The notes under the pieces are model-generated. The model was not told where the DNA came from, did not search any database, and worked only from the letters and a program-made list of their open reading frames with translations. This document shows, one piece after another, positions 2,332 through 21,008 of a DNA stretch of 21,312 nt (position 1 is its first letter; every line of letters begins with the position of its first letter). This stretch comes from a virus. Position numbers and translations under genes: made by a program. Where the stretch lies: IMG/VR virus record IMGVR_UViG_3300047667_000049, positions 1 through 21,312 of that record. The stretch is one strand, 5' to 3'.

Positions 2332-4095
2332 ATGCCAAGACTAAGTTTATACCGGGAACAGAAACAGAACGATTATCGTTTCTTAGACAGAAATATCTCT
2401 GAGCAATTGACTGTGGGTGGTACTGATTTATATATCCATAAATATGCAGGACCATTAGATCAAGGACCTTCAACAGATTTTACACAGCCTCAATACGATG
2501 CGATGGAGCCAACAAACATACAAGACTTGCTGTTCTTAGAGAACAGAGATCGAAAGTATGAGAAGGATATATATCGATTACGTGGTCATTACTCTGTACA
2601 AAACTTAGACTTTGATCTCAGTCAATTCGGTTTATTCTTAAGTAATGACACTATTTTCATCAATGTACATTATAATGACATGATGGACATCTTAGGCAGA
2701 AAAATGATGGTAGGTGATGTGATCGAATTACCCCACTTGCTTGATTACGATCCATTAAACGATGATGCAACTTTATTCCCCACAGCACTAAAAAGATTTT
2801 ATCAAGTTACAGATGCTAACTTTGGAAGTGAAGGCTTTGCAATTGATTGGTACCCTCATCTATGGCGTATCAAATGTGAGAAGTTAGTAGATAGCCAAGA
2901 GTTTCAGGATATCTTACGTGCTCCAGATGATATAGATAATTATTTAGGAGACTGGGACAAGAACAAAACTTACCCTGCAGGGTATGTAATGACATTTGGT
3001 GACAAGAACTATCTTTCATTACAAGACGTACCTGTAGGAACTAAACCCAATGCAACTAATCCAGATCTTTATTGGGTACTAGATACAGGCAGAACTTTAA
3101 AAGATGTATTAGGTCGTTACAATGAAAACATTAGAATCAATGATGCTAACTTAAAAGAAGCGGCACGTATTGTACCTAAAGCAGGTTACGATACATCAGA
3201 CTTATATGTTGTTCCTGGTTACGGTATATATGAAGCAAACAATGTATTATCAAACAAATTAAATCAGCCGGCACCCCCAACAGATGTTCGTGCATGGATG
3301 CCTGGCAACAGTGCATTAAGTGCAACCGGTGAAGTCATTACAATGAAAAGTGACAAATACAAAAATGAATCTACGGGTATTAGAATACCTAAAGAAGTCA
3401 TGGAAGTAATGCAAATCAAACATGGAGAGCAAGGAATAGATTTAGATGCAATGATAGAAAAGTTTGTACAAGCGACTTTATCAATAGCAGTTGAATCTCC
3501 AGAAATGTCTCCTACAGGATCTGGTTCAGGGGCAGTAGAAGGAACAAAACTTCTCACAGTTAATATATCAGGGCCTGTTGTAGGTCCATACGGTACTGCT
3601 GATAACACTTACGCAACAGCAGACCAAGATCCAGTAGCACCAGGGTTCACAGGTACGGAACCATATGGTCCGAATACAATGGACTATCGTGCTGACTGTG
3701 ATCCTAGATTTCAATTCATTGCACGTGCAACTCCAAGAGACTTTGGTTATACAACAGGTTACTTAAGTGGAGATGGTACTCCACCTAATGGTCTACCTTC
3801 AGGAGCAGGAATATCATTCCCATCATCACCGCAAGTGGGAGACTACTTCTTGCGAATAGACTATACACCAAATGTTTTATATCGTTGGTCAGGTACTCTT
3901 TGGTTAAGAGTTAGTGAAGATGTCAGAACAACAACAGGCTATACTGCCGCTGATACTTCGCAACTTTCAGGCTTTATTAATAACGAGGCGAATATTTTTG
4001 TAAATAACGATGGAGCAAATGTATCATCTGCTCAACCTCTAAGTTCTCTATTAAACATAGCACCAGATGCTAATCCACCAAGTGACGGGACATAA
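2332..4095 (+). CDS. gp14-like neck protein, enlarged (587 aa)
   Basis: Residues 1-195 follow the pattern of T4 gp14. A VGGTDLYIHKY strand matches the RGVECYYVPRE region, NIQDLLFLENRDRKY matches the PDLIFGED region, then DLSQFGLFLSNDT, then GDVIELPHL (GDLIYFP in T4), then a KRFYQVTDANF strand and a WYPHLWRIKCEKL segment. T4 gp14 is about 256 aa, so this version is more than doubled. Residues about 207-252 (W, Y, G, then GTKP and a final W) resemble a small carbohydrate-binding fold of the CBM5/12 kind. Residues about 493-525, with a PSSPQVGDYF then YRWSGTLW pattern, are a short module I recall from phage surface proteins. The stop overlaps the start of the gp15-like gene (TAATG), so the two are co-translated. 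The conserved MPRLSLYR start supports this ATG. The extra modules suggest a decorated neck, which is an inference. Confidence 0.6.
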   Translation: MPRLSLYREQKQNDYRFLDRNISEQLTVGGTDLYIHKYAGPLDQGPSTDFTQPQYDAMEPTNIQDLLFLENRDRKYEKDIYRLRGHYSVQNLDFDLSQFGLFLSNDTIFINVHYNDMMDILGRKMMVGDVIELPHLLDYDPLNDDATLFPTALKRFYQVTDANFGSEGFAIDWYPHLWRIKCEKLVDSQEFQDILRAPDDIDNYLGDWDKNKTYPAGYVMTFGDKNYLSLQDVPVGTKPNATNPDLYWVLDTGRTLKDVLGRYNENIRINDANLKEAARIVPKAGYDTSDLYVVPGYGIYEANNVLSNKLNQPAPPTDVRAWMPGNSALSATGEVITMKSDKYKNESTGIRIPKEVMEVMQIKHGEQGIDLDAMIEKFVQATLSIAVESPEMSPTGSGSGAVEGTKLLTVNISGPVVGPYGTADNTYATADQDPVAPGFTGTEPYGPNTMDYRADCDPRFQFIARATPRDFGYTTGYLSGDGTPPNGLPSGAGISFPSSPQVGDYFLRIDYTPNVLYRWSGTLWLRVSEDVRTTTGYTAADTSQLSGFINNEANIFVNNDGANVSSAQPLSSLLNIAPDANPPSDGT

Positions 4096-5696
4096 TGGCA
4101 CAATATTTTTACGATAATCAGATAAGAAGATTTTTATTACAGTTTGCTAAAATTTTTAGTAATTGGTATGTAACTCAAGGAAATGATCCTAACGGCAATC
4201 CTATATTAGTTAGAGTACCAATTCAATACGGTGACTCTAGTAGACAAGCCGCAACTATTATTGCGAACAACTCGGCATCCAACCTGCCCTCTGCACCTTT
4301 GATGACGTATTTTATTAACGGTTTAGAGTATGATCAGAAACGTACACAAGAGCCTTACTTTGTAGAGAAACAAAACATACGTCAAAGAAAATATGATTCT
4401 GGCTCACAGAATTACGGTGACGAACAGGGACAAGCATTTACTGTTGAGAAGTTGATGCCAGTACCATATACACTTCGATTACAAGTTGATTTTTGGACAA
4501 CTAACTATCAGCAAAAATTAGAATTGATTGAGCAATTAGGAACATTGTTTAATCCTTCATTAGAAATTCAAAGTACAGATAATTTTGTAGACTGGACATC
4601 ATTAACAATTGTATATCAGGATGGTTTAACATTCTCATCTCGTACTATTCCACAAGGAACCGGTAATCCAATTGATGTCATGTCATGGAAGTTCTACTTA
4701 CCCATGTGGATTACTACATCTTCTAAACTTAAAAAGTATGGTGTTATTAATAAAGTTATCGCATCTATTTTTGATGGGAAAACATTACAAGATATGTCTG
4801 ATGATGACTTGCTAATGGGAACAAGACAAAAGATTTCTCCATACGGATATCAAGTATTGTTTATAGGTAACTCATTACAATTGTTACCCCAAGATATACC
4901 TGAACAGCCATCTAATTTAACATTAGATAAACCAGTCAATCCAGATACTGATTTGTTTTGGACATCAATCTTAAATATGTATGGTGCTTATCGCCCTGGT
5001 ATCTCACAGATTTGGTTAGACAATCCATATATGGAGACTGAGATTGTAGGAACAATAGTAGTTGATCCACTTGATGATCGTTATTTAATTTTTCAAGTTG
5101 ACATAGATACTTTACCACAAAATACTTTAGAGCCAGTTAACTCAGTTATTAATCCACAAATTACAGGGCCCAACTCAGGCTTGCCCGGACCTGTTCCTAA
5201 TGTCAGATATTTGTTAGTGAGTAACATTGCATCTGATACTGCATCATGGGGTACAATTATAGGAAGTCAGACAGGTAAATCAACTGCACCTGAATCGCAG
5301 GTTGCTACTACTCTAGCTCCAAATGTAAAATATCAAATTGCAACTTTAGGTACAACAGACTTTAGAAACTATGGCGCCGCAACTAATACTATCGGCACTC
5401 AATTTACAATGAACAATGTACAGCCAGAAGGCACCGGAACTGCATACACTGTAGTTGAAGCAGGTGCTAATGATATCTTACAATTTAATTCAGATATTAT
5501 GACTTGGTTTGTTGCATTTGATGCGAGTATAAATTCCACATCGACTGCTTTAGAGTATCTTATTAATCTAACAACAGAAATTCAATATCGTTGGGCTGAT
5601 ACTCCCGCAGACTCTGTGCAACCCGGATTGCCTGCTCAATGGATGAAGTCATATGAAGGTTATTATAACGAAGGTGATTACAGTATAGTTATTTAA
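4095..5696 (+). CDS. gp15-like tail sheath stabiliser and completion protein (533 aa)
   Basis: The N-terminal region (1-226) matches the order of motifs in T4 gp15. YFYDNQIRRFLLQFAKIFSN corresponds to YFYNSSFRRYATLMGDLFSN. Next come RVPIQYGD (RVPITYA in T4), a PLMTYFINGLEYD strand, and PVPYTLRLQVDFWT with EQLGTLFNPSLEI (EQILPYFQPHF). T4 gp15 caps the tail tube and sheath and joins the tail to the neck. T4 gp15 is about 272 aa; here about 300 further residues follow. They include a Gly/Thr-rich module near 412-455 (ATLGTTDFRNYGAATNTIG) and a C-terminal block with YRWADTP and KSYEGYYNEGDYS. The ATG overlaps the gp14-like stop by one base and has GGGA upstream. Position directly after the gp14-like gene agrees with T4 gene order. 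Confidence 0.75.
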   Translation: MAQYFYDNQIRRFLLQFAKIFSNWYVTQGNDPNGNPILVRVPIQYGDSSRQAATIIANNSASNLPSAPLMTYFINGLEYDQKRTQEPYFVEKQNIRQRKYDSGSQNYGDEQGQAFTVEKLMPVPYTLRLQVDFWTTNYQQKLELIEQLGTLFNPSLEIQSTDNFVDWTSLTIVYQDGLTFSSRTIPQGTGNPIDVMSWKFYLPMWITTSSKLKKYGVINKVIASIFDGKTLQDMSDDDLLMGTRQKISPYGYQVLFIGNSLQLLPQDIPEQPSNLTLDKPVNPDTDLFWTSILNMYGAYRPGISQIWLDNPYMETEIVGTIVVDPLDDRYLIFQVDIDTLPQNTLEPVNSVINPQITGPNSGLPGPVPNVRYLLVSNIASDTASWGTIIGSQTGKSTAPESQVATTLAPNVKYQIATLGTTDFRNYGAATNTIGTQFTMNNVQPEGTGTAYTVVEAGANDILQFNSDIMTWFVAFDASINSTSTALEYLINLTTEIQYRWADTPADSVQPGLPAQWMKSYEGYYNEGDYSIVI

Positions 5697-5713
5697 GGGC
5701 AACCCAGTCACTT

Positions 5714-5722
5714 ACTAAATAA
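5714..5722 (+). promoter_or_regulatory. late-type promoter box, five bases before the Nudix ATG
   Basis: ACTAAATAA lies just after the gp15-like stop. Its TAAATA core ends five bases (ACTGT) before the ATG at 5727. No ribosome site is seen in the gap or just upstream of it, so a leaderless mRNA is predicted. Confidence 0.5.
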
Positions 5723-5726
5723 CTGT

Positions 5727-6140
5727 ATGATCATTATTAATCAATCTGCTGGTATTTTCTTTTACAGTAAATCAACTGCAAGATCACTTTATCTATTAAG
5801 AAACGAATCTAAAAATCCTACATGGTCTATCCCAGGCGGTAAGATTGAAAAGAACGAAACATTACTAACCGGCTTAAAAAGAGAATGCCAAGAAGAAATT
5901 GCATATTGGAAAGATGATTTGAAATTAGTTCCTGTTCAAAAATTTGTCAACGGAACATTCGCATATCATACATTCTTCTGTGAAGTAGAAGAAGAATTTT
6001 CACCACTTCTTAATAACGAACATTGTGGGTATGCTTGGGTAGGAGATGATCGCTATCCCAAACCTCTTCACCCCGGATTATTTTCTACAATTAGCCTAGA
6101 TAATGTCGCAGAAAAGTTAGCAAGTCTTAAGAAGTTATGA
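5727..6140 (+). CDS. Nudix hydrolase
   Basis: This 137-aa protein has a Nudix box at residues 38-60: G38, E44, then R52-E53, E56-E57, fitting GX5EX7REUXEEXGU. The Gly near the end of the box is Ala59. The Arg and Glu residues that bind metal and catalyse are all present. Nudix enzymes cleave nucleoside diphosphates linked to another moiety, for example oxidised dNTPs, ADP-ribose or RNA caps; the substrate cannot be read from this sequence. The size is normal for a single-domain Nudix protein. The stop overlaps the next start (ATGA), so the two genes are probably co-translated. The upstream late-type box suggests late expression, which is unusual for a nucleotide-pool enzyme. Confidence 0.88.
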   Translation: MIIINQSAGIFFYSKSTARSLYLLRNESKNPTWSIPGGKIEKNETLLTGLKRECQEEIAYWKDDLKLVPVQKFVNGTFAYHTFFCEVEEEFSPLLNNEHCGYAWVGDDRYPKPLHPGLFSTISLDNVAEKLASLKKL

Positions 6141-6655
6141 TCACTGTCATTGCTGTTGACGGGGCATTGGGAGAAATCATAGTAGACATCTTAAATGCAA
6201 ATAATGTTGACGCAGTATTTGCCTCTTCCCCAGCAGTACATATCACTAATAAAATTGTTTTTGTTACCTTTGAATTTGATGGATACCCATTCGTAATGAC
6301 AAAACGATGGCTTGCATATAATGAAGAAGCATTTAATGATTGGAAACAACATTGGTTGGGCAGAATAGAAATTAACGATAGAGCAGATGTTACTCCTGAA
6401 GAATGGAAACATCATGTAACTAAAAGTTTAAAACATGTGGGTGTCTATTATCCGATAAATGGTATGCTTCAAAAATTGATAGATGAGAACTCAGCACATG
6501 ATTTAACTTACTGTGAGATAGAGTTAGATGCTCTCTTACATCGCCGCAGAGACGTTCTAAGAGACCTCAGTAGTTTTACTAATGCGAATATAGTCTTTGA
6601 CTCAATTGATGATGTCGTTGATTCTACGCAGTCTGACGTACTACCCTGGATTTAA
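6137..6655 (+). CDS. unknown protein of 172 aa, coupled to the Nudix gene
   Basis: I do not recognise a family. The N-terminus (MITVIAVDGALGEIIVDILNANNVDAVF) has the strand-loop-helix look of a nucleotide-binding or Rossmann-like start, but no clear P-loop is present. The middle is rich in Trp, His and acidic residues (WKQHWLGRIEI, EEWKHHV). Near the end, LLHRRRDVLRDLS is a basic helix. There is no signal peptide or membrane segment. The 4-base ATGA overlap with the Nudix gene suggests a functional partnership. A terminator hairpin follows directly. Confidence 0.65.
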   Translation: MITVIAVDGALGEIIVDILNANNVDAVFASSPAVHITNKIVFVTFEFDGYPFVMTKRWLAYNEEAFNDWKQHWLGRIEINDRADVTPEEWKHHVTKSLKHVGVYYPINGMLQKLIDENSAHDLTYCEIELDALLHRRRDVLRDLSSFTNANIVFDSIDDVVDSTQSDVLPWI

Positions 6656-6661
6656 CCCAAA

Positions 6662-6688
6662 AAGAAAGGGTGACTAGCACCCCTTCTT
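6662..6688. terminator. terminator hairpin between convergent genes
   Basis: An 11-base arm AAGAAAGGGTG pairs with CACCCCTTCTT with one A-C mismatch and a 5-base loop ACTAG. On the plus strand it is followed by AACTTTT. It starts just after the stop at 6655 and faces the minus-strand gene ending at 6704, so it may serve both directions. Confidence 0.65.
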
Positions 6689-6703
6689 AACTTTTATATT
6701 ACT

Positions 6704-7033
6704 TTAATGAGACATCCAGAACTCAATTACTGAGTACCCTAATGTTCCTGCTACCATACCTGCTCCGATAAGCATCCATCTCCAACGTTCCAGGGCTGTA
6801 ATCTTAACAGCCATTTCATCGTGTGATGATTGATTAGATTTGTTAAAATCAATCAGCATCTTATGTGTAGATGCATTACCCTCTTTGATTAACTCAGAAT
6901 TAACTTTAATGTCTGCTTTAACATCTTCGAGGGCCGTATCGAACTTAGTGTCGAGGTTTTTAAACTCAACTTTAAGTACAGCAATGTCAGTATCGTACTG
7001 TTGCAATTGTTTTTGTGCGTTACTTTGTGCCAT
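6704..7033 (-). CDS. coiled-coil protein with C-terminal membrane helix, XhlA-like
   Basis: In 109 aa, residues about 5-82 form a charged heptad-like helix. A single hydrophobic span follows at about 86-104 (WMLIGAGMVAGTLGYSVIEFW) and the protein ends after a few residues. The ERWRWMLIGAG junction is typical of XhlA-like phage proteins. Those are small cytoplasmic coiled coils with a C-terminal anchor, found near holins. A role in lysis is therefore possible but not shown; no endolysin or second holin is visible nearby. The gene follows the structural gene at 7051-8415 by 17 bases, with AGGT before the ATG, so it is probably on the same late transcript. Confidence 0.6.
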   Translation of the reverse strand: MAQSNAQKQLQQYDTDIAVLKVEFKNLDTKFDTALEDVKADIKVNSELIKEGNASTHKMLIDFNKSNQSSHDEMAVKITALERWRWMLIGAGMVAGTLGYSVIEFWMSH

Positions 7034-7050
7034 TTAAGTTACCTGTTCCC

Positions 7051-8415
7051 TTATGCTGAAGGAAGTTTGATAACTGGTTTCACTGAACCAGCTAGTGGCG
7101 TACCAGCGATTGTTTCAAACGTTGCCTGCATTCCAGTCTGAGTAGCCTTAGTTAGAGGTGAACCACTATCGTTATCGAATGGTAAACCATTAACATCAGA
7201 GATAGACTCAATGTAAGTAACGCCCGCATTGTCATATGTACCTTGTATGCTCATCTCACCAGCAAGTAAATCTGCTTGTGCTTTATTAACTAAAGTACAA
7301 ATACCTTGTCTTGTTTCTGGTCCGTTGCTTACTAAGTATTTTCTCTTACCTTTTTGACGTAAGATGTAAACTGCTTCATCAGCGGCTCCTTGAATCCCAG
7401 AATAGGCTGATTTAGTAAATGTTGATACTGCGCCTAATGTTAATTTTTCAATGTTAGCAGTTGATACAACAGTTGTTGTTGTCAATGCTAATGCTGTTCC
7501 ACCTAATGTTGCTGAAACACTGAAAGTTGTTCCACTATCAATTGTTTTAACAAAGTAGGTAGTGTCTGCTGATAATCCACCGATCGTTGCCGCAAACCAA
7601 ATTGGAGCATCTAAATCAAATGCCGCAGTTGAAGTAACTGTGATTAAGTCTGTGCCTGCGTCTGAACTTGCTGTTGCTGTTGATACAGTGTCTATAGATG
7701 CTACTGTACCTAATGGTACGTTAGCACTGCTTGATGCATATGATACTGAACCAGTACCTGCGCCAGCGGCTGTTGCTATGAATACTTCACCTAAGTTAGC
7801 ACCTGTTGCTCCCATTGCGATCCATTGTGCCGCAGATGTTCCAACTGTGTTGTTGATTACATAAGTAACGCCAGTAACTAATGCACCGACTACGAAAGGT
7901 ATATTGTCGCCAGTGAATGAAAGTTGCTCGCCGACTGCTATGTTAACATCGAAGTCTGCGGTTTTGTCACCGTATACATCAGTTGTTGATGTGTCAAACC
8001 AGAAAGCTCCTGGATTAGCAATAGCAATTGCACCAAATGCAGTTAACTGTTTACTATATTGTTGAGTGTCTCCACCGACTACGCCCATATCTTGAGGTGT
8101 GTCTGATGGATATCCTTCGTCAACTTGGTTAAAAGTTAGTATTACACTTTGACCAGTTGTATTTGTTAATGTTGGTGATACATGAGGTTGTACTGACCAA
8201 GATTTGGTTAATGCTGTAAACGTAGTGCTTGAAAGTACTTCATCTACATAGTATGTTGTTCCGCCAGTTAATCCACCTACTGTTGAAGCAGGGACAAATC
8301 TGTCGCCTCTTGTTAAGTAAAACGTTGTGTCTACTGTGATTACATTTGTTGTTGCAGTCGTGTCTGTGAGCGGACCGCTAAACGATGATTTTGATATTTT
8401 TAATTTATTCGCCAT
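7051..8415 (-). CDS. repeat-rich virion structural protein (454 aa)
   Basis: The protein is rich in Thr, Ser, Gly and Val with few charged residues, typical of beta-structured phage appendage proteins. It carries at least two related modules: one near residues 20-75 with VGGLTGGTTYYVDEV and one near 255-320 with IGGLSADTTYFVKTI. Each starts with an (N/D)(V/L)ITV strand. The C-terminal 130 residues are different and less repetitive, with GKRKYLVSNGPETRQG, and may be the conserved virion-anchoring part. AGGAG before the ATG marks a strong start. A late-type box lies about 110 bases upstream. No enzyme motif is seen. The exact location in the virion cannot be told. Confidence 0.6.
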   Translation of the reverse strand: MANKLKISKSSFSGPLTDTTATTNVITVDTTFYLTRGDRFVPASTVGGLTGGTTYYVDEVLSSTTFTALTKSWSVQPHVSPTLTNTTGQSVILTFNQVDEGYPSDTPQDMGVVGGDTQQYSKQLTAFGAIAIANPGAFWFDTSTTDVYGDKTADFDVNIAVGEQLSFTGDNIPFVVGALVTGVTYVINNTVGTSAAQWIAMGATGANLGEVFIATAAGAGTGSVSYASSSANVPLGTVASIDTVSTATASSDAGTDLITVTSTAAFDLDAPIWFAATIGGLSADTTYFVKTIDSGTTFSVSATLGGTALALTTTTVVSTANIEKLTLGAVSTFTKSAYSGIQGAADEAVYILRQKGKRKYLVSNGPETRQGICTLVNKAQADLLAGEMSIQGTYDNAGVTYIESISDVNGLPFDNDSGSPLTKATQTGMQATFETIAGTPLAGSVKPVIKLPSA

Positions 8416-11181: not shown

Positions 11182-11871
11182 TTAGATGTACTTGGTGTAG
11201 TATTCCTCTAACTTCTTTAACCACAGTTGATGATACTTGTCGAACTCTTTTCCTTCAACAATAAACTCTTGGTATTCAAAGTCTTTACTGCACATAAAGA
11301 TAACACCTTTCTTAATGTTTGTGCCGTATAGTTCGTTATGTGCATCAGCATAAGCAGTCATCTGAATAAAGTAATCATCGATCCACTCACGTTTCTTAGG
11401 TCTATTTGTTTGCTTGTGATCCATAATTGCTTCGTCACCGTTATGCAATCCTACTAAGTCAGTTGTTCCTGCATAGATTTGAGGGAAGTATAATGTTACT
11501 TCAGTTCCCCAAAATTCTTCACAGTTAACTAATCCTTTGTCAATGATTTCTTGTGCCATAATATGACTTTGTTTGCTGTATGGGTTTGATCCGTACTGTC
11601 CCATGTCGCCAGTATCACTTAGCACATAGTTCTCTAACCATTTATGCATACGTGTTCCGCGACCTGCGGCTTCTGTAGTGATCTCTTGTGCTTTAGCATA
11701 GCCAACTCTCTTACGCCAATTGTCTAAAGATGCTTTCTTTTCTTCAGATGCAGTAGCACTTAATATTGTAGTGACACTAGGGAGTTTTCCTCCGTCTGGT
11801 GTAAGATATCTACGTGAACCGTCTATATTCTTTTTCTTTAGTTCTTGGTATGGGTATTTGTCTATTATCAT
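11182..11871 (-). CDS. PD-(D/E)XK nuclease, MGME1-like
   Basis: This 229-aa protein carries the motif order of the RecB-type nuclease family and especially of the mitochondrial exonuclease MGME1. LPSVTTILSAT is at residues 30-40, GTRMH at 72-76 and GTEV with E124. GTTDLVG with D138, then IMDHKQTNRPKK with D151 and K153, form the D...(D/E)XK metal site. QMTAYADAHN at 170-179 is the QxxxY helix. The family cleaves DNA ends, often single-stranded. Roles in phage recombination, replication or host DNA breakdown are all possible. It starts at ATG 11871, overlapping the preceding stop by one base (TAATG) with AGAGG upstream. It is the last gene of an IscA/SGNH/nuclease unit. Some RecB-type nucleases carry an Fe-S cluster; here I do not see the four-cysteine set. 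Confidence 0.8.
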   Translation of the reverse strand: MIIDKYPYQELKKKNIDGSRRYLTPDGGKLPSVTTILSATASEEKKASLDNWRKRVGYAKAQEITTEAAGRGTRMHKWLENYVLSDTGDMGQYGSNPYSKQSHIMAQEIIDKGLVNCEEFWGTEVTLYFPQIYAGTTDLVGLHNGDEAIMDHKQTNRPKKREWIDDYFIQMTAYADAHNELYGTNIKKGVIFMCSKDFEYQEFIVEGKEFDKYHQLWLKKLEEYYTKYI

Positions 11872-12746
11872 TATGGCCTCTGTGATGTGTGATCTAGTTG
11901 TGGACGACCTGCCCAGTTTCTTTTAGTATAATCCATTCCTAATTCATGCATATAATAAACATTTCTAGCAAAATCAAGTGGATAATAGTCTATTGGATTG
12001 TGATGTGATCTTTTTAAATCTTCTATTGTTTTAGGAGTATGAATTAAGATGTCATGTAATTTTGCATGAGGTAAATCTATCACTTCGATGTTATCATATC
12101 TTTTTTCTATTTGTTCCCAAATATAATCTGCAAGATATTGATGTCCTTCTTCAGTTTCATGTAAACAAGATGTCTTCTCTAAGCCTCTAGTTATGTCATT
12201 AAAGTTTTTTAATTTGCCAGGATGACATTCTAGTTCATTCTGAAGAATTGTATCATGTTTTTCCTGAAATGCTTTAGAACTACCGTTTGTTTCTGGCATA
12301 TAATCAGACATAAAATGCGAAACATTGTAAGCATCTAACAGATTATTAATACTCGCCCAGTTATGTAACTTGTTTTGTTGTAGTAAACCATAGTAATGAT
12401 CGTCAGAGTTTAAGATAACTTCTTTTTCTAATTTAGAAATTTCTCCCTCTCCATCGACTATTTGAAATTGATGTGTCTTTGATAAGTAACATTCTCTACG
12501 TGATGATTGAGAGTATGCATGAATATAAAAAGGATTGTTGTCGTTAAATAAGTCTTTGTAGAAGTATTGCATTGTTCTACGATAGATTGCTGTATTGCCT
12601 TGACCGGGTATACCAAGATTGATTAAAGGAACACCTAAGCGTTTTGCAATAATAGATGGCCAGGCATCATTGATAGGATCCCATATACCATGTCCATATG
12701 TGTAACTGCATCCGTTGACAACTAAGTGTGATACTTTTAGATTCAA
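11871..12746 (-). CDS. SGNH-like hydrolase domain protein (second copy)
   Basis: I chose the TTG at 12746, which overlaps the stop of the Fe-S carrier gene (TTGA) and has GGAGAGAG nine bases upstream. This gives 291 aa starting MNLKVSHLVVNGCSYTYGHG. An earlier TTG at 12773 would add nine residues. NGCSYTYGHG fits SGNH block I with Ser14. GIPGQGNTAIYRRT fits the Gly/Asn block. Near the C-terminus, SCLHETEEGHQYLADYI resembles block V, but the Asp usually two or three residues before the His is not there (Cys or Ser instead). Catalysis may therefore be altered or use another acid. Most of the middle is unrelated to known domains that I can recall. The similarity to the 253-aa protein at 303-1064 is limited to these motifs. 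Confidence 0.6.
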   Translation of the reverse strand: MNLKVSHLVVNGCSYTYGHGIWDPINDAWPSIIAKRLGVPLINLGIPGQGNTAIYRRTMQYFYKDLFNDNNPFYIHAYSQSSRRECYLSKTHQFQIVDGEGEISKLEKEVILNSDDHYYGLLQQNKLHNWASINNLLDAYNVSHFMSDYMPETNGSSKAFQEKHDTILQNELECHPGKLKNFNDITRGLEKTSCLHETEEGHQYLADYIWEQIEKRYDNIEVIDLPHAKLHDILIHTPKTIEDLKRSHHNPIDYYPLDFARNVYYMHELGMDYTKRNWAGRPQLDHTSQRP

Positions 12747-13060
12747 ATTGTAAAACTCTCTCCGCAACCACAACGTGCTTTCTCTAGTGGATTAATGAAT
12801 TCAAAGCCTTCATTGAGTCCTTTCTTTTGATAGTCTACTGTGATTCCTTCAAGTATGTCATTAGCCTTTGGGTCTATTAAGATTGCAAAACCATCGTATT
12901 CATTTAGAATGTCTTCTTCATTAATATTGTCTGCAAACTCAAGGGTATATGCAAATCCACTACAACCTGTAGTTTCAATACCTATACGTATACCTACACC
13001 TTTGCCTCGATTGGTTAAGTGAGTTTTGATTTTATCTTTTGCTTTTTCTGTAACGTCCAT
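12743..13060 (-). CDS. A-type iron-sulfur carrier (IscA/ErpA/HesB family)
   Basis: This 105-aa protein has the full family signature: TGCSGFAYTLEF with C33, and ARCGCGESFTI at the end with C97 and C99. The three cysteines hold a [2Fe-2S] or [4Fe-4S] cluster or iron for transfer to target proteins. Length and order agree with the family. In a phage it is an auxiliary metabolic gene. It might support an Fe-S protein of the phage or the host during infection, or sit on the virion as has been suggested for iron-binding phage proteins; both are inference. It is the first gene of a three-gene unit with overlapping ends. ATTAAATA ends five bases before its ATG and no ribosome site is close, so the mRNA may be leaderless. 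Confidence 0.9.
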   Translation of the reverse strand: MDVTEKAKDKIKTHLTNRGKGVGIRIGIETTGCSGFAYTLEFADNINEEDILNEYDGFAILIDPKANDILEGITVDYQKKGLNEGFEFINPLEKARCGCGESFTI

Positions 13061-15814: not shown

Positions 15815-16963
15815 TTAGCCTCTAGCGGCTAAATTTTGACGAGCAAAGCCCATTCTATTAACAAATTTGAGTCCGTTAGCAACGAAACCTTCATGTGTTT
15901 CAGTGCCATCATCTAAGAATCCTTTGACAGGACTTGACTTTGCGGCTTGATCAAGTTGATCGACAACGTTTTGTTTAAGATTGTATAATGCAATCCATAT
16001 TTTGAATGCACCTATTACGCCGTCTTTATGTGCATTGAAATGCATCATAAGTTTTTCTCTCATTTTGTCTGTCAATTTTCTGTTTTCGACAAACGTAATG
16101 AAGTCTGCATAAAGATTTTGTAGATCACCTGAAACAATTTTTTTATTAACAAAAACAGTAAACAGCATGTTAAATCCATTACGTGCTTGAGGTGCTGTTT
16201 GAAATAATGCTTTAACAGCATTACTATTTTGATTAATCTCTGCTTCTGCTTTTTGTTTAAGTTTGCTATTGATCTTTAAATTGGGTGTTATAGGCATTTT
16301 ACTAGGAACAATTGCAACTGTTGAATTATTTTTTAATGTACCTATTGATCCATTGAGTGATTCTGCTTCGTCAGTTGTCATAGCATTAGGTGGAATATAT
16401 TGATGTACTGCTATGGCTGCCTGCTTGTCAGCAAGTAAATGACCAATTTCACTATCAGCATCTACTGTGTATGAGATACCACCAGGGTTTGCTTTGAATC
16501 TAAACACGCCGTCATTATCTACTAATGGCTCACTAAACAATAGGTCTCCCCAATAAAAACCAGCTCCTCTGTCTGATGCTTCAAGTCCAGGCCAGACTCT
16601 TTCGATAATACTATACAAGTCTCCCCTGTTTACTTGTCGACCATCATCATATGCTTTAAATTCTTTCGGTGAGAATACTTGTCTACCTGTACCATCTTTC
16701 TTATTGAACATATGTTTGTCCATAACAGAGAATCTGCCGTCTTTACCACGACCGAATATCAATGCAGGATAACCGTCCCATTTAATTGTAATACTGTTAG
16801 GGGAGTTGATAGTTGCTTCTATCTGTTTGATGGCTTCTCTAGCACCTTGTTCATCACCTAGGAATACAAGGTCTTCAGGATGTTCTAAATGTCCTGAGCC
16901 TTCGACTAAATTAATTTTTTCTAATTTACGTAATGTATTAGAGATAGATTCACTGAGGTTCAT
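15815..16963 (-). CDS. ligase-like nucleotidyltransferase-fold protein (DUF6267-like), 382 aa
   Basis: Residues 57-71 (SITIKWDGYPALIFG) contain K61-x-D-G, the motif I lysine signature of ATP/NAD-dependent ligases and mRNA capping enzymes. FYWGDLLF at 137-143 resembles motif III, THEGFVANG at 356-364 resembles motif IV (EGxV), and LKFV with K366 could be motif V. The N-terminal HLEHPEDLVFLGD with a following helix is shared, from memory, with uncharacterised marine myovirus proteins labelled DUF6267. A 170-residue insert with helical character separates motifs III and IV, unlike usual ligases. A real ligase activity is not shown: no OB-fold is evident after motif V. The start has GAGG upstream and sits close behind the 456-aa gene. 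The context is structural rather than replicative. Confidence 0.6.
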   Translation of the reverse strand: MNLSESISNTLRKLEKINLVEGSGHLEHPEDLVFLGDEQGAREAIKQIEATINSPNSITIKWDGYPALIFGRGKDGRFSVMDKHMFNKKDGTGRQVFSPKEFKAYDDGRQVNRGDLYSIIERVWPGLEASDRGAGFYWGDLLFSEPLVDNDGVFRFKANPGGISYTVDADSEIGHLLADKQAAIAVHQYIPPNAMTTDEAESLNGSIGTLKNNSTVAIVPSKMPITPNLKINSKLKQKAEAEINQNSNAVKALFQTAPQARNGFNMLFTVFVNKKIVSGDLQNLYADFITFVENRKLTDKMREKLMMHFNAHKDGVIGAFKIWIALYNLKQNVVDQLDQAAKSSPVKGFLDDGTETHEGFVANGLKFVNRMGFARQNLAARG

Positions 16964-16965
16964 TA

Positions 16966-18336
16966 TTACCTCGTAGACAGTTGTGCGATTTTTTCTGCTC
17001 TTAGTGCTGAGTTAGTTTTAGATTCTGATACTTCATCTTTTTTACGTTTTGCGGCTCGTCTATCTCTATCTTTAAACTCATCATCTACTTTTGGTTCTGA
17101 GAAATCAAGTTCACCTTGTTCTGCATCAGGCTCGGTTACTGCAATTGGAACTTGAAATTTATCACTTACAGCAACATAATTATTTAATTTATCTTGTATT
17201 TGAGACTCAGCTGGAAGACTCGTTTCTGTGTTTATCCATTGATCTTCTGTTTGTGAATATTGATATTTGTTGCTACCAACATCTAATACTGCATTAGGTT
17301 TAATATTATAGTCAACGCCTTTTCCACTTGTCGGATCTGTAGTAGTTGAACCGGTATCGTCTGCTGTTCCAGTTGTTGCAGTAGATGATCCAGGATTCGT
17401 ATTAACTATTGTTTTTTGTTTTTGTGGCTGATCAGTTTGTTGTTTTGCTGATTGTTGCTGTTGCTGTGGACCTATTAGGCCAGCGTCTTGCATTGTTTTT
17501 CTTTGTTGGGCAGAAAAGCCTGCTTGTGCCTTAGGAAGAATACCGTGAGATTTAGATGCTCCATATGAAGCATTTCCTAATTTCATAAGTAAGTTTTTAT
17601 CTATATTAGGTCTTGATGTATTTTTTGATGCGTTGTATACAGCCTCAATTTCATCAATGATTGAATTAGATGTCATTGCAGTTTTGTTAAGAGGTACACC
17701 AGTCATCCATTGACCATACCAATCTCTTAAAAAAGTTTTTAAAGTTCGTGGTCCTAATTCTTCTTCAGTAATAATAGATTCTAAGATATAATTCATATTT
17801 ACTAACTTAACCCACTCATTCATATCTCCAGTAAATCCTGGATATGCTCTCTGAATTTCTTGTGTGGTTAAACCTTTATCTTTCATCTGTTGAAGGGTAA
17901 ATTGTTGCCATTGTTTCTTACGTTTAAGTGGACTTTTAACATTATTAAATCCATCAGTCTCTTTGCCGTAATCAGACTTATTAGGAATATACTCTCCATA
18001 TTGCATATGACCAGACATCTTAGGATTAAACATTCGCCTTGCTTTTTCTTGGAAGCCAGGCATTAAATAATTTTTACCATCTTTGTTTTTTCTTACATCG
18101 TTGTTTTCACCACCATCTGAGCCTTCTGCTCCTGTAGGTTCCATAATTAGACCTGATGCAATGGCTGATTCAATAGATAATAATGCAGAACTCATAAAGT
18201 TATCAAGGAAAATTTGTTTTGCTAATTCGTCTACGTAAGTTCCTTTTGCTCCGCCTTTCATTCTAGGGCCTTTTCTTCCCAACTCAGTAAGACTTGTATT
18301 CTTTATTTCAACTGCTGTTACATCATCAAACTTCAT
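16966..18336 (-). CDS. unknown 456-aa protein with Gln/Thr-rich linker
   Basis: No family is recognised. Residues 1-270 look folded, with KGGAKGTYVDELAKQIFLDNF, a FLRDWYGQWMTG segment and MNEWVKLVNMNYILES. Residues about 290-350 are a low-complexity linker (a QQQQQ run, then repeated T, G, S and D). A small module with DYNIKPNAVLDVGSNKYQYSQ follows, and then a very charged tail (DRDRRAAKRKKDEVSES). The layout suggests a virion or assembly protein with flexible parts. AAGGG lies before the ATG, seven bases after the stop of the 80-aa gene, so the two are probably one transcript with the ligase-like gene downstream. Confidence 0.65.
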   Translation of the reverse strand: MKFDDVTAVEIKNTSLTELGRKGPRMKGGAKGTYVDELAKQIFLDNFMSSALLSIESAIASGLIMEPTGAEGSDGGENNDVRKNKDGKNYLMPGFQEKARRMFNPKMSGHMQYGEYIPNKSDYGKETDGFNNVKSPLKRKKQWQQFTLQQMKDKGLTTQEIQRAYPGFTGDMNEWVKLVNMNYILESIITEEELGPRTLKTFLRDWYGQWMTGVPLNKTAMTSNSIIDEIEAVYNASKNTSRPNIDKNLLMKLGNASYGASKSHGILPKAQAGFSAQQRKTMQDAGLIGPQQQQQSAKQQTDQPQKQKTIVNTNPGSSTATTGTADDTGSTTTDPTSGKGVDYNIKPNAVLDVGSNKYQYSQTEDQWINTETSLPAESQIQDKLNNYVAVSDKFQVPIAVTEPDAEQGELDFSEPKVDDEFKDRDRRAAKRKKDEVSESKTNSALRAEKIAQLSTR

Positions 18337-18634: not shown

Positions 18635-20050
18635 TTATTTGTCTTTCAATGTATTCAGTAATGACTTGAGTTTAGTACTTTGTACATCACCATTTACTTT
18701 CTTTTGTTCTGTATCAACTTGTTCATGTACTGCTTGATCAGTTGCTCCTACTTGTGATGTTGTTTTAAACTTATCCATGATTGATTGTGCAGACGGTTGT
18801 GCTGTATTCTGAGTTGGAGCACTAGTACCAGGGTCTGTAATACGCAATGTGTCAACATCGAATGCTAATTCAACTTTCTGTCCTACACCAGCACTTGATC
18901 TTGTCTTCATTAACTGAATCTGATACTGTCCACGTTCTCTCATACTGCGTGATGTAAAGATACCGAACACATTGTCTGCTGTGTTAATCTTACTGATACC
19001 ACCTGAGATATGACTGTGATCAAATTCGATTTCTTCTACTGCACTTCTGTTTAACTGTGATGCAGTTACAAAAATTATATCTAATTCTTTTGCCAAGTTA
19101 CGTAATTCTTCTGATACATATTTGTCTTTAACAAACAAGTCACTAGGACTTACTTTAGCACTTACAGGCATTAACAAATCCAAATAGTCAACACACATAA
19201 AGTCTAGTTTCTTTCCTGTTTGTATTTGTAGTTCTCTAGTAAATGCTCTAAGATCATTAACTGTAGACTGTGCCGGCATATACTTAATTTGAAAGTGTCC
19301 AGATGCTTTTTGTTTCATCTTTACTTTCATTTCAACATTGTCCAAGTCTCTGAACACTTCTTTTGTTTTAGTATCAGTCAACATTGAATCGACACGCATT
19401 GCTGATAGTTCTTCACTTAACTCTAGTGTGACGTACACACCTGATAAGCCTTGCTCTACCCAATTAACAGATAGATTTTGCATGAACAATGACTTACCTG
19501 AACCTGAACCCCCTGCAAAGATTTGTAGTTCACCTTTGTTGAATCCACCATAGAGTTTTTGATCTAAACAAGGCCAACCAGTAGATGCTTGACCGTTACT
19601 TGATTTCAAATGCATAAGACGAGCCCTAGGATCTTCAAAGTAATCGATACCTAAGTCTCTTTGTAATGATATCTGAACTGCATCTTTGATTAACTTTTCG
19701 ACAGGGTCATAATCACCTTTCTCTAAAAGGTCTGCTGACTCCATGATTGCTCTTTCTAATTCTTGTCTACGAGTAAATGATTCAAACTCATTCATAAACC
19801 ATTCATAATGACCTTCATCTAAATCAGCAACAGGCTCAATAGTTTCACCTGTTGTTGCTTTGATTTGTGTTGAGTCAGGCAATACTTTATAATTAGTAGA
19901 GTGTTCTCTCATAAACTCTGCAACAGGTCGTAGTCTTCTATCAAAGTTTTCAGAGTTAAAGATGTTAGTAACCCTAACAAACAACTCTGCGTTTGTTACC
20001 ATCATTCGCAAGAACAATTCTTGTACGTCTGCGTTAAATTCTTTTAGCAA
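18635..20050 (-). CDS. replicative DNA helicase, DnaB/T4 gp41 type
   Basis: This 471-aa protein has the RecA-type helicase core. Walker A GGSGSGKS is at 180-187, VTLELSEEL with the catalytic Glu at about 207-215, Walker B FMCVDYLDLL at 284-293, and a TASQLNR sensor at 329-335. GGISKINTADNVFGI near 350-364 matches the DnaB-family motif H4 region. The N-terminal 150 residues are the helical domain that contacts primase. The C-terminal 70 residues are a low-complexity tail rich in Gln, Thr and Lys. The helicase unwinds DNA at the fork as a hexamer. The start is TTG at 20050, overlapping the primase stop by 17 bases, with GAGGA six bases upstream. It is co-transcribed with the primase. Confidence 0.93.
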   Translation of the reverse strand: MLKEFNADVQELFLRMMVTNAELFVRVTNIFNSENFDRRLRPVAEFMREHSTNYKVLPDSTQIKATTGETIEPVADLDEGHYEWFMNEFESFTRRQELERAIMESADLLEKGDYDPVEKLIKDAVQISLQRDLGIDYFEDPRARLMHLKSSNGQASTGWPCLDQKLYGGFNKGELQIFAGGSGSGKSLFMQNLSVNWVEQGLSGVYVTLELSEELSAMRVDSMLTDTKTKEVFRDLDNVEMKVKMKQKASGHFQIKYMPAQSTVNDLRAFTRELQIQTGKKLDFMCVDYLDLLMPVSAKVSPSDLFVKDKYVSEELRNLAKELDIIFVTASQLNRSAVEEIEFDHSHISGGISKINTADNVFGIFTSRSMRERGQYQIQLMKTRSSAGVGQKVELAFDVDTLRITDPGTSAPTQNTAQPSAQSIMDKFKTTSQVGATDQAVHEQVDTEQKKVNGDVQSTKLKSLLNTLKDK

Positions 20051-21008
20051 TTTTATTCCTCATAACTTCCACCTTGATTTTACTGTTTGTAGCGGAGTCT
20101 AATATACTTAGTAGTGTATTCAAACGTCCGTATTTAATTACTGCATCATTTGCATCTTTAATATCTTCTGACCAGTTGGGTAATGATACATCATAACCTA
20201 GTTCTAATGCTCTTTCGCATATACCTAATCCTGTCTTGTCCTGATCAGGAATGACAATAACACGTTTGCCCAATTTGTTAATTACAGCAACTTGATTATC
20301 ATTAATCGTATCATGTGTCAATGCTAATCCATTCATTGATATTGCATCAAAGATACCTTCAAACACTAAAACAACTTCCCAATCTTCTTTCTGTAAGTCT
20401 GTACCAAACACATAACCTTGTTGTTGATCATTAATAAACTTAGGATTTCTATCATCCATAAATCTAATTGTACTACCAACTACTTTGTTCTCATATGTGT
20501 AAGGTATAACAATGCCCTGTGCATTTCTGCCTTCTGCTTTAGGATTGACCATGAAAGGGTAGTCATTGTGTTGTAAGCCTCTTTTGTTTAAGTAATCGAT
20601 ATACACTTGATGATCTTTGTTCGCAGTATAAATCAGTTCGCCTTCTGGCATCTGTTGTTCTTTGAATTTAGGTAATTTAATTTGTTTCTTTTTATGCAAG
20701 ATAGAATCTAATAAGTCTTTGTGTTGAATAGAATGCAAAGACCACTTGTTAATATCTGTATCTGGCATGTTGCACCATGTTAAGAATGAACGAGTCTTTC
20801 TACTGATTGCTCTGCCTAGTTTAAAGCCGCATTTGAAGTTGCAATTAAAACAATGAAACTGCCAATCGTCTCCGTCTGCTTTGATTCCACCACGCATACG
20901 TTTGTCAGGGTTATGGCCATTATGAGAACAACAAGGAGCATTGAACGATGTCCAGCCACTTTGCGTCTGTTTCTTTTTGCCGGGTATAACCGTGAGTATG
21001 TCAAACAT
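20034..21008 (-). CDS. DNA primase with zinc ribbon and Toprim domain
   Basis: This 324-aa protein has an N-terminal zinc site with PCCSHNGH (C26, C27, H29) and FHCFNCNFKC (C53, C56, C60). The Toprim domain begins near 210: VVLVFEGIFDAI holds the Glu (E217), IPDQDKTG holds D255 and D257 of the DxD pair, and DIKDANDAV follows. This is the layout of T7 gp4 primase and of marine T4-like gp61 proteins. It makes RNA primers for lagging-strand synthesis and works with the adjacent helicase. The ATG at 21008 keeps the whole zinc site. It is only seven bases behind the TATAAT, so the mRNA would have almost no leader. The gene order primase then helicase, with overlap, fits a joint primosome. Confidence 0.88.
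   Translation of the reverse strand: MFDILTVIPGKKKQTQSGWTSFNAPCCSHNGHNPDKRMRGGIKADGDDWQFHCFNCNFKCGFKLGRAISRKTRSFLTWCNMPDTDINKWSLHSIQHKDLLDSILHKKKQIKLPKFKEQQMPEGELIYTANKDHQVYIDYLNKRGLQHNDYPFMVNPKAEGRNAQGIVIPYTYENKVVGSTIRFMDDRNPKFINDQQQGYVFGTDLQKEDWEVVLVFEGIFDAISMNGLALTHDTINDNQVAVINKLGKRVIVIPDQDKTGLGICERALELGYDVSLPNWSEDIKDANDAVIKYGRLNTLLSILDSATNSKIKVEVMRNKIAKRI

Follow-up and report, generated by a model that had tools for sequence, protein, structure and literature searches.

The stretch analyzed here, referred to as the window, comprises 21,312 nucleotides of IMG/VR virus record IMGVR_UViG_3300047667_000049. An earlier note, made from the sequence alone, had drawn attention to positions 15815 to 16963 and had suggested the family name DUF6267 for the encoded protein. 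Both the coordinates and the name proved correct: the gene is read on the minus strand from 16963 down to 15815, with the plus strand full of stops, and its 382-aa product matched PF19782 (DUF6267) in a Pfam profile search with an E value of 6.5e-37 over residues 25 to 379 (128.2 bits against a curated cut-off of 27; positions 3 to 373 of the 376 in the model covered). The protein is a direct member of Pfam DUF6267 (PF19782), PHROG 455, and T4-GC 71, all of them library families without any assigned function, and no paper on DUF6267 by name was found in the literature searched. The features of the gene and its upstream neighbors are listed in Table 1.

Table 1. DUF6267 gene, motifs and domain of its product, and upstream genes in the window
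Feature	Coordinates	Strand	Basis
DUF6267 gene, predicted covalent nucleotidyltransferase, 382 aa	15815..16963	-	ORF, PF19782, AlphaFold model, ligase fold
N-terminal motif HLEHPED, residues 25-31, family signature	16871..16891	-	H28, E30, D31 in 155/155 members reaching the motif
Motif I, K61-W62-D63-G64; K61 presumed nucleophile	16772..16783	-	K61, D63, G64 in 156/156
Presumed motif III, G139-D140-L141-L142	16538..16549	-	D140 in 156/156; in strand 135-143 of the model
Helical domain, residues 233-341, between motifs III and IV	15941..16267	-	AlphaFold model 1; ~110 residues
Motif IV, E358-G359-F360-V361	15881..15892	-	E358, G359 in 154/154 members reaching the motif
Motif V-like K366-F-V-N-R370	15854..15868	-	K366 in 153/153, R370 in 152/152 of members reaching the residue
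Protein of unknown function, 456 aa, directly upstream of DUF6267	16966..18336	-	No match in Pfam or PHROG
DnaB/gp41-type replicative helicase, third gene upstream	18635..20050	-	PHROG 19 E 1.4e-67, PF03796 E 1.1e-20
DNA primase, fourth gene upstream	20034..21008	-	PHROG 47 E 1.6e-27

The 456-aa protein is kept in the window's clade only; its group (cluster 2) lies directly upstream of DUF6267 in 60 loci, and it gave no confident profile match to the genes upstream of DUF6267 in other clades. A shared upstream partner was rejected, since the preceding genes form several mostly unrelated groups. The product of the second gene upstream in the window has 80 aa and belongs to a "virion structural" PHROG; next come the helicase and primase genes. 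Replication genes were also found next to DUF6267 in phage isolates. In P-TIM40, P-SSM4, S-SM1, and HTVC008M, the gene comes after gp43-uvsX-gp41, with gp61 further downstream in S-SM1, and in Melnitz it is preceded by a RecA-like gene and a DnaB-like helicase gene; in S-CREM2, it is located near the long tail fiber gene instead. The surroundings of DUF6267 were thus mostly replication genes, with virion-type genes often near as well. The earlier note had placed the gene among virion-type genes and not among replication genes, which was incorrect: virion-type genes are indeed nearby, but the contrast with replication genes fails.

An AlphaFold2 model of the window protein (model 1), built from 69 sequences, had a pLDDT of 89.5, and an AlphaFold model of a family member 28% identical to it (model 2) had a pLDDT of 88.3. 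The best 50 VIA matches of model 1 were all RNA or DNA ligases, headed by the Naegleria RNA ligase with a Z of 7.9 (about 4 Å, about 180 residues), a value near 8 being moderate by the tool's own warning. The same enzyme was the top VIA match of model 2 (Z 8.5, 3.6 Å, 180 residues), followed by the RNA-editing ligase and T4 Rnl2, and the best unrelated match among those listed had a Z of 6.7 over 96 residues. The earlier note had suggested comparing a predicted structure with ligase adenylation domains; both predicted structures matched the adenylyltransferase domains of RNA and DNA ligases best, over ~180 aligned residues, and for neither was the best match a fold unrelated to nucleotidyltransferases. 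In BFVD, a library of viral models, the matches to the window protein included, apart from DUF6267 proteins, the RNA ligase of an Agrobacterium phage (E 4.9e-4). Counting against the ligase reading, Foldseek gave no significant match in the PDB for either model, and PDB sequence and profile searches with DUF6267 gave no match to a ligase or to anything else. Comparisons by hhalign with small sets of Rnl1, Rnl2, and DNA ligases were not significant, although they paired motif I with KLDG in an Atu_ph07 protein and motif IV with EG in an Rnl1. The predicted ligase-superfamily fold was a moderately strong assignment, which became firmer because the motif pattern agreed with it.

This pattern had been described by the earlier note, and the residues named there as nucleotidyltransferase motifs (K61-W-D-G, GDLL at 139 to 142, and EGFV at 358 to 361 with a nearby lysine, K366) were all present in these positions, with support for both the motifs and their order. 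The family alignment of 156 members spanned viral-contig relatives and phages of Synechococcus, Prochlorococcus, Pelagibacter, Methylophilales, Vibrio, and Stenotrophomonas, the most distant of which were ~20% identical to the window protein. The KxDG motif, on whose conservation the earlier note had made its reading depend, was invariant in all 156. Residues that never changed were K61, D63, G64, P66, G71, K83, F86, D140, Y165, H187, and N273, and V361 of motif IV was kept in 153/153 members reaching this residue. KxDG alone proves nothing, since it also occurred in 67 of 392 other ORFs of 300 to 500 aa within related loci; it is the conservation across 156 members that raises it above chance. 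Two motifs deviated from the canonical form, which weighs against the ligase reading. The presumed motif III has Asp (D140) where canonical ligases have Glu, and we infer the correspondence of G139-D140-L-L to motif III. Motif V has the form K-x-V-x-R, in which the first Lys (K366) is invariant, the second Lys of KxK is replaced, and R370 is invariant. An alignment in which fused proteins were put together with single ones was dropped because it pulled the DUF6267 C terminus onto the HxGH domain.

The long helical insert between motifs III and IV that had been noticed in the sequence was present in model 1, with helices at residues 233 to 255, 258 to 278, 284 to 294, 299 to 311, and 313 to 341, and the same arrangement was seen in model 2 despite only 28% identity. 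Downstream of motif V, model 1 has only ~13 residues with one helix (370 to 381), and the chain ends 16 residues past K366. The OB-fold domain with motif VI, as in gp30-type DNA ligases and mRNA capping enzymes, was absent after the nucleotidyltransferase domain of model 1. The window protein also lacks a C-terminal domain of the Rnl1/Rnl2 type past motif V, which counts against the ligase reading.

For comparison with known enzymes, the Naegleria gruberi RNA ligase (NgrRnl; PDB 5cot, 5cou, and 6vt3) was closest in its adenylyltransferase-domain fold, as given by the Z values of 7.9 and 8.5. Its residues K170, D172, E227, E312, and K326, known from mutants in the PDB titles, parallel K61, D63, D140, E358, and K366 of DUF6267; their order is the same and their spacing comparable except between motifs III and IV, where DUF6267 has well over 100 extra residues that contain a helical bundle. 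NgrRnl differs from DUF6267 in having an N-terminal domain of its own and in lacking the long helical insert between motifs III and IV; sequence identity is 9 to 12%, and the motif III Glu and motif V differ. The predicted fold of DUF6267 also resembles T4 RNA ligase 2, RNA-editing ligase 1, and T4 RNA ligase 1 (Z 6.4 to 7.5), with which it shares a KxDG-type motif I and an EGxV-type motif IV; unlike these enzymes, it ends without their C-terminal domain and has the family motif HLEHxED and invariant H187, N273, and K330. PF09414 and PF09511 gave no match for the window protein and one weak match (PF09511, E 0.017) among 69 family members. ATP-dependent DNA ligases (T4 gp30 and human LIG1) matched with their nucleotidyltransferase domain at lower Z (5.3 to 6.2). 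Like them, DUF6267 sits near replication genes, but it has no OB-fold domain, no PF01068 match, and a helical insert. By the tests run, DUF6267 lies outside the Rnl1, Rnl2, and gp30 families and is best called a variant within the covalent nucleotidyltransferase superfamily. That it is a ligase-fold covalent nucleotidyltransferase we consider very probable.

Almost all T4-like cyanophages carry DUF6267: it was found in 371 records of Synechococcus phages and in 61 named "Cyanophage", compared to 376 and 61 for gp41. As the window covers 21 kb of its phage's genome, the ligase inventory was taken from relatives. P-TIM40, Melnitz, HTVC008M, P-SSM4, C48C1, and S-SM1 had no match to PF01068, PF01653, PF09414, or PF09511, and S-CREM2 had none in a search with PF01068 alone, for which the T4 positive control has one. 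A gp30-type ligase (PF01068) was hence missing from all seven DUF6267 Kyanoviridae checked; the authors of S-CREM2 list a "ligase" among the genes of this phage. A T4 gp30 query matched 2513 phage records, and Synechococcus matches can number at most about 53, because Synechococcus was not among the ten commonest names. A review states that no g30 homologues have been detected in cyanomyoviruses and that distant ones may have gone unrecognized (PMC2984593). Together with the placement of the gene after gp43-uvsX-gp41, this would suit a role as the replicative DNA ligase that is missing from T4-like cyanophages, encoded beside gp41 and sealing Okazaki nicks in place of gp30. We regard such a role as unlikely. 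Both DUF6267 and a PF01068 ligase are encoded by Vibrio phages 2.275.O and EniLVp02 and by Stenotrophomonas phage DLP6, so strict replacement of gp30 was rejected; moreover, the best structural matches are RNA ligases, an OB fold is absent, and host LigA could serve instead. A cellular origin of DUF6267 was also rejected, as its 31 genome-contig matches, mostly marine MAG contigs, are probably phage DNA. In JN371769.1 (metaG-MbCM1) and KF156339.1 (S-MbCM25), the annotation gives ribonucleotide reductase for DUF6267 and/or cytidylyltransferase genes, apparently in error.

Outside the window's clade, 64 of the 70 loci with enough sequence had a gene for an HxGH nucleotidyltransferase close to DUF6267 or fused with it. 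The median gap was 46 bases, and in three loci both were part of one protein; within the window's clade, HxGH was near DUF6267 in 0/46 loci. Because fusions exist, PHROG 455 mixes DUF6267 with its partner and holds both halves, and in the viral structure library a 591-aa S-PM2 protein named cytidyltransferase-like matched DUF6267. A P-loop kinase was present in the neighborhood of a large subgroup (27 loci) and a Pol-beta nucleotidyltransferase domain in that of 23 loci, and these domains often share one polypeptide with HxGH. Neither kinase nor Pol-beta genes were near DUF6267 in the window, which is a genome fragment, or in its clade. Pol-beta enzymes of the RlaP family have been reported alongside phage RNA ligases (PMC7824862), a possible parallel to the Pol-beta domains near DUF6267. 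Multidomain proteins downstream of DUF6267 in L107-L150 (e.g., L113:4211-7597, L108:7183-9918, and L128:5537-8668) combine HxGH with Pol-beta, P-loop kinase, PAP2 phosphatase, RimK ATP-grasp/zinc protease, or DUF5824 modules. In L224, which is on the contig of L035 from the window's clade, a different HxGH nucleotidyltransferase heads a large protein and adjoins a Clp-type ATPase gene, far from DUF6267.

The HxGH protein corresponds to T4-GC190, a core protein of cyanophages that S-SM1 virions contain (PMC3037559), and the S-CREM2 cytidylyltransferase (ORF154) is likewise on the virion protein list of that phage (PMC10665884). HxGH is weakly similar to NadR/NMNAT and, in L166, L167, and L169, is joined to a P-loop kinase in one protein, as in NadR. 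Such a NadR-like partner favors a cofactor or cap pathway, in which HxGH would make a dinucleotide such as NAD or a CDP/ADP conjugate and DUF6267 would use or attach the product, and the strong linkage, the fusions, and the presence of cytidylyltransferases in cyanophage virions agree with it. We nevertheless hold this pathway to be quite improbable, since the NadR-like matches were below all curated cut-offs, the window's clade has no HxGH near DUF6267, and nucleic acid is indicated by the Pol-beta domains that these cassettes also contain.

Besides a nucleic-acid ligase, the earlier note had considered an enzyme that AMPylates proteins and a structural derivative of the fold, and either could be carried in the virion, given the virion-type genes near DUF6267 in the window and the virion location of its usual partner. 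This appears very improbable. Every presumed catalytic residue is kept across divergent members, which disfavors a structural derivative; nothing points to AMPylation, and we know of no protein AMPylator with a ligase-type nucleotidyltransferase fold. In addition, DUF6267 (ORF87 of S-CREM2) was missing from the 52 virion proteins found by mass spectrometry (PMC10665884).

We lean towards DUF6267 being an active, divergent covalent nucleotidyltransferase that forms a lysyl-NMP and seals or repairs nucleic-acid ends, for which we infer chemistry, cofactor, and substrate. K61 would attack the nucleotide cofactor, most likely ATP, to yield a lysyl-AMP intermediate, with D63, D140, E358, and K366 shaping the nucleotide pocket. 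The AMP would next go to the 5' phosphate of a nucleic acid, whose end would be sealed or activated. The role that a separate C-terminal domain has in other ligases may fall here to the helical domain between motifs III and IV. Nucleic-acid end repair fits best because relatives place DUF6267 with a P-loop kinase, Pol-beta, and the HxGH nucleotidyltransferase; that the window's clade has none of these partners near DUF6267 counts against it. The kinase and Pol-beta neighbors favor RNA repair, while the place of the gene and the lack of other ligases favor replicative nick sealing; of the two, RNA repair is somewhat more likely. As a tentative and rather doubtful extension, DUF6267 could be the core polynucleotide ligase of T4-like marine phages and the only ligase-fold enzyme there, working with virion-delivered HxGH nucleotidyltransferase (in some phages also with kinase and Pol-beta) in an undescribed end-processing pathway. 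The close linkage of DUF6267 to a nucleotidyltransferase that virions contain suggests an end-processing pathway, possibly one at work early in infection. T4-like cyanophages, like their relatives, are abundant marine phages, and the literature has yet to settle whether they encode a distant gp30 ligase (PMC2984593); DUF6267 may be the end-joining enzyme that T4-like cyanophages were thought to lack. A near-universal core gene of unassigned function thus gains a presumed catalytic lysine and a few candidate reactions.

Elsewhere in the window, within 2332-8415, the coding strand switches between about 6655 and 6704. The plus strand carries structural and tail sheath stabilizer genes, and the minus strand carries replication genes, DUF6267, and tail-fiber-like genes. 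Two minus-strand genes, 303-1064 and 11871-12773, code for two proteins that are distantly related to each other (two-sequence comparison, E 2e-5). Both have a GCS...G start and are weakly similar to the GDSL type, and they are possibly SGNH hydrolases. Also on the minus strand, 11182-11871 codes for a PD-(D/E)XK-like exonuclease (PHROG 298, E 8.6e-54), and 12743-13060 codes for an iron-sulfur cluster biosynthesis protein of the HesB/IscA type (PF01521, E 2.1e-16), here in a phage.
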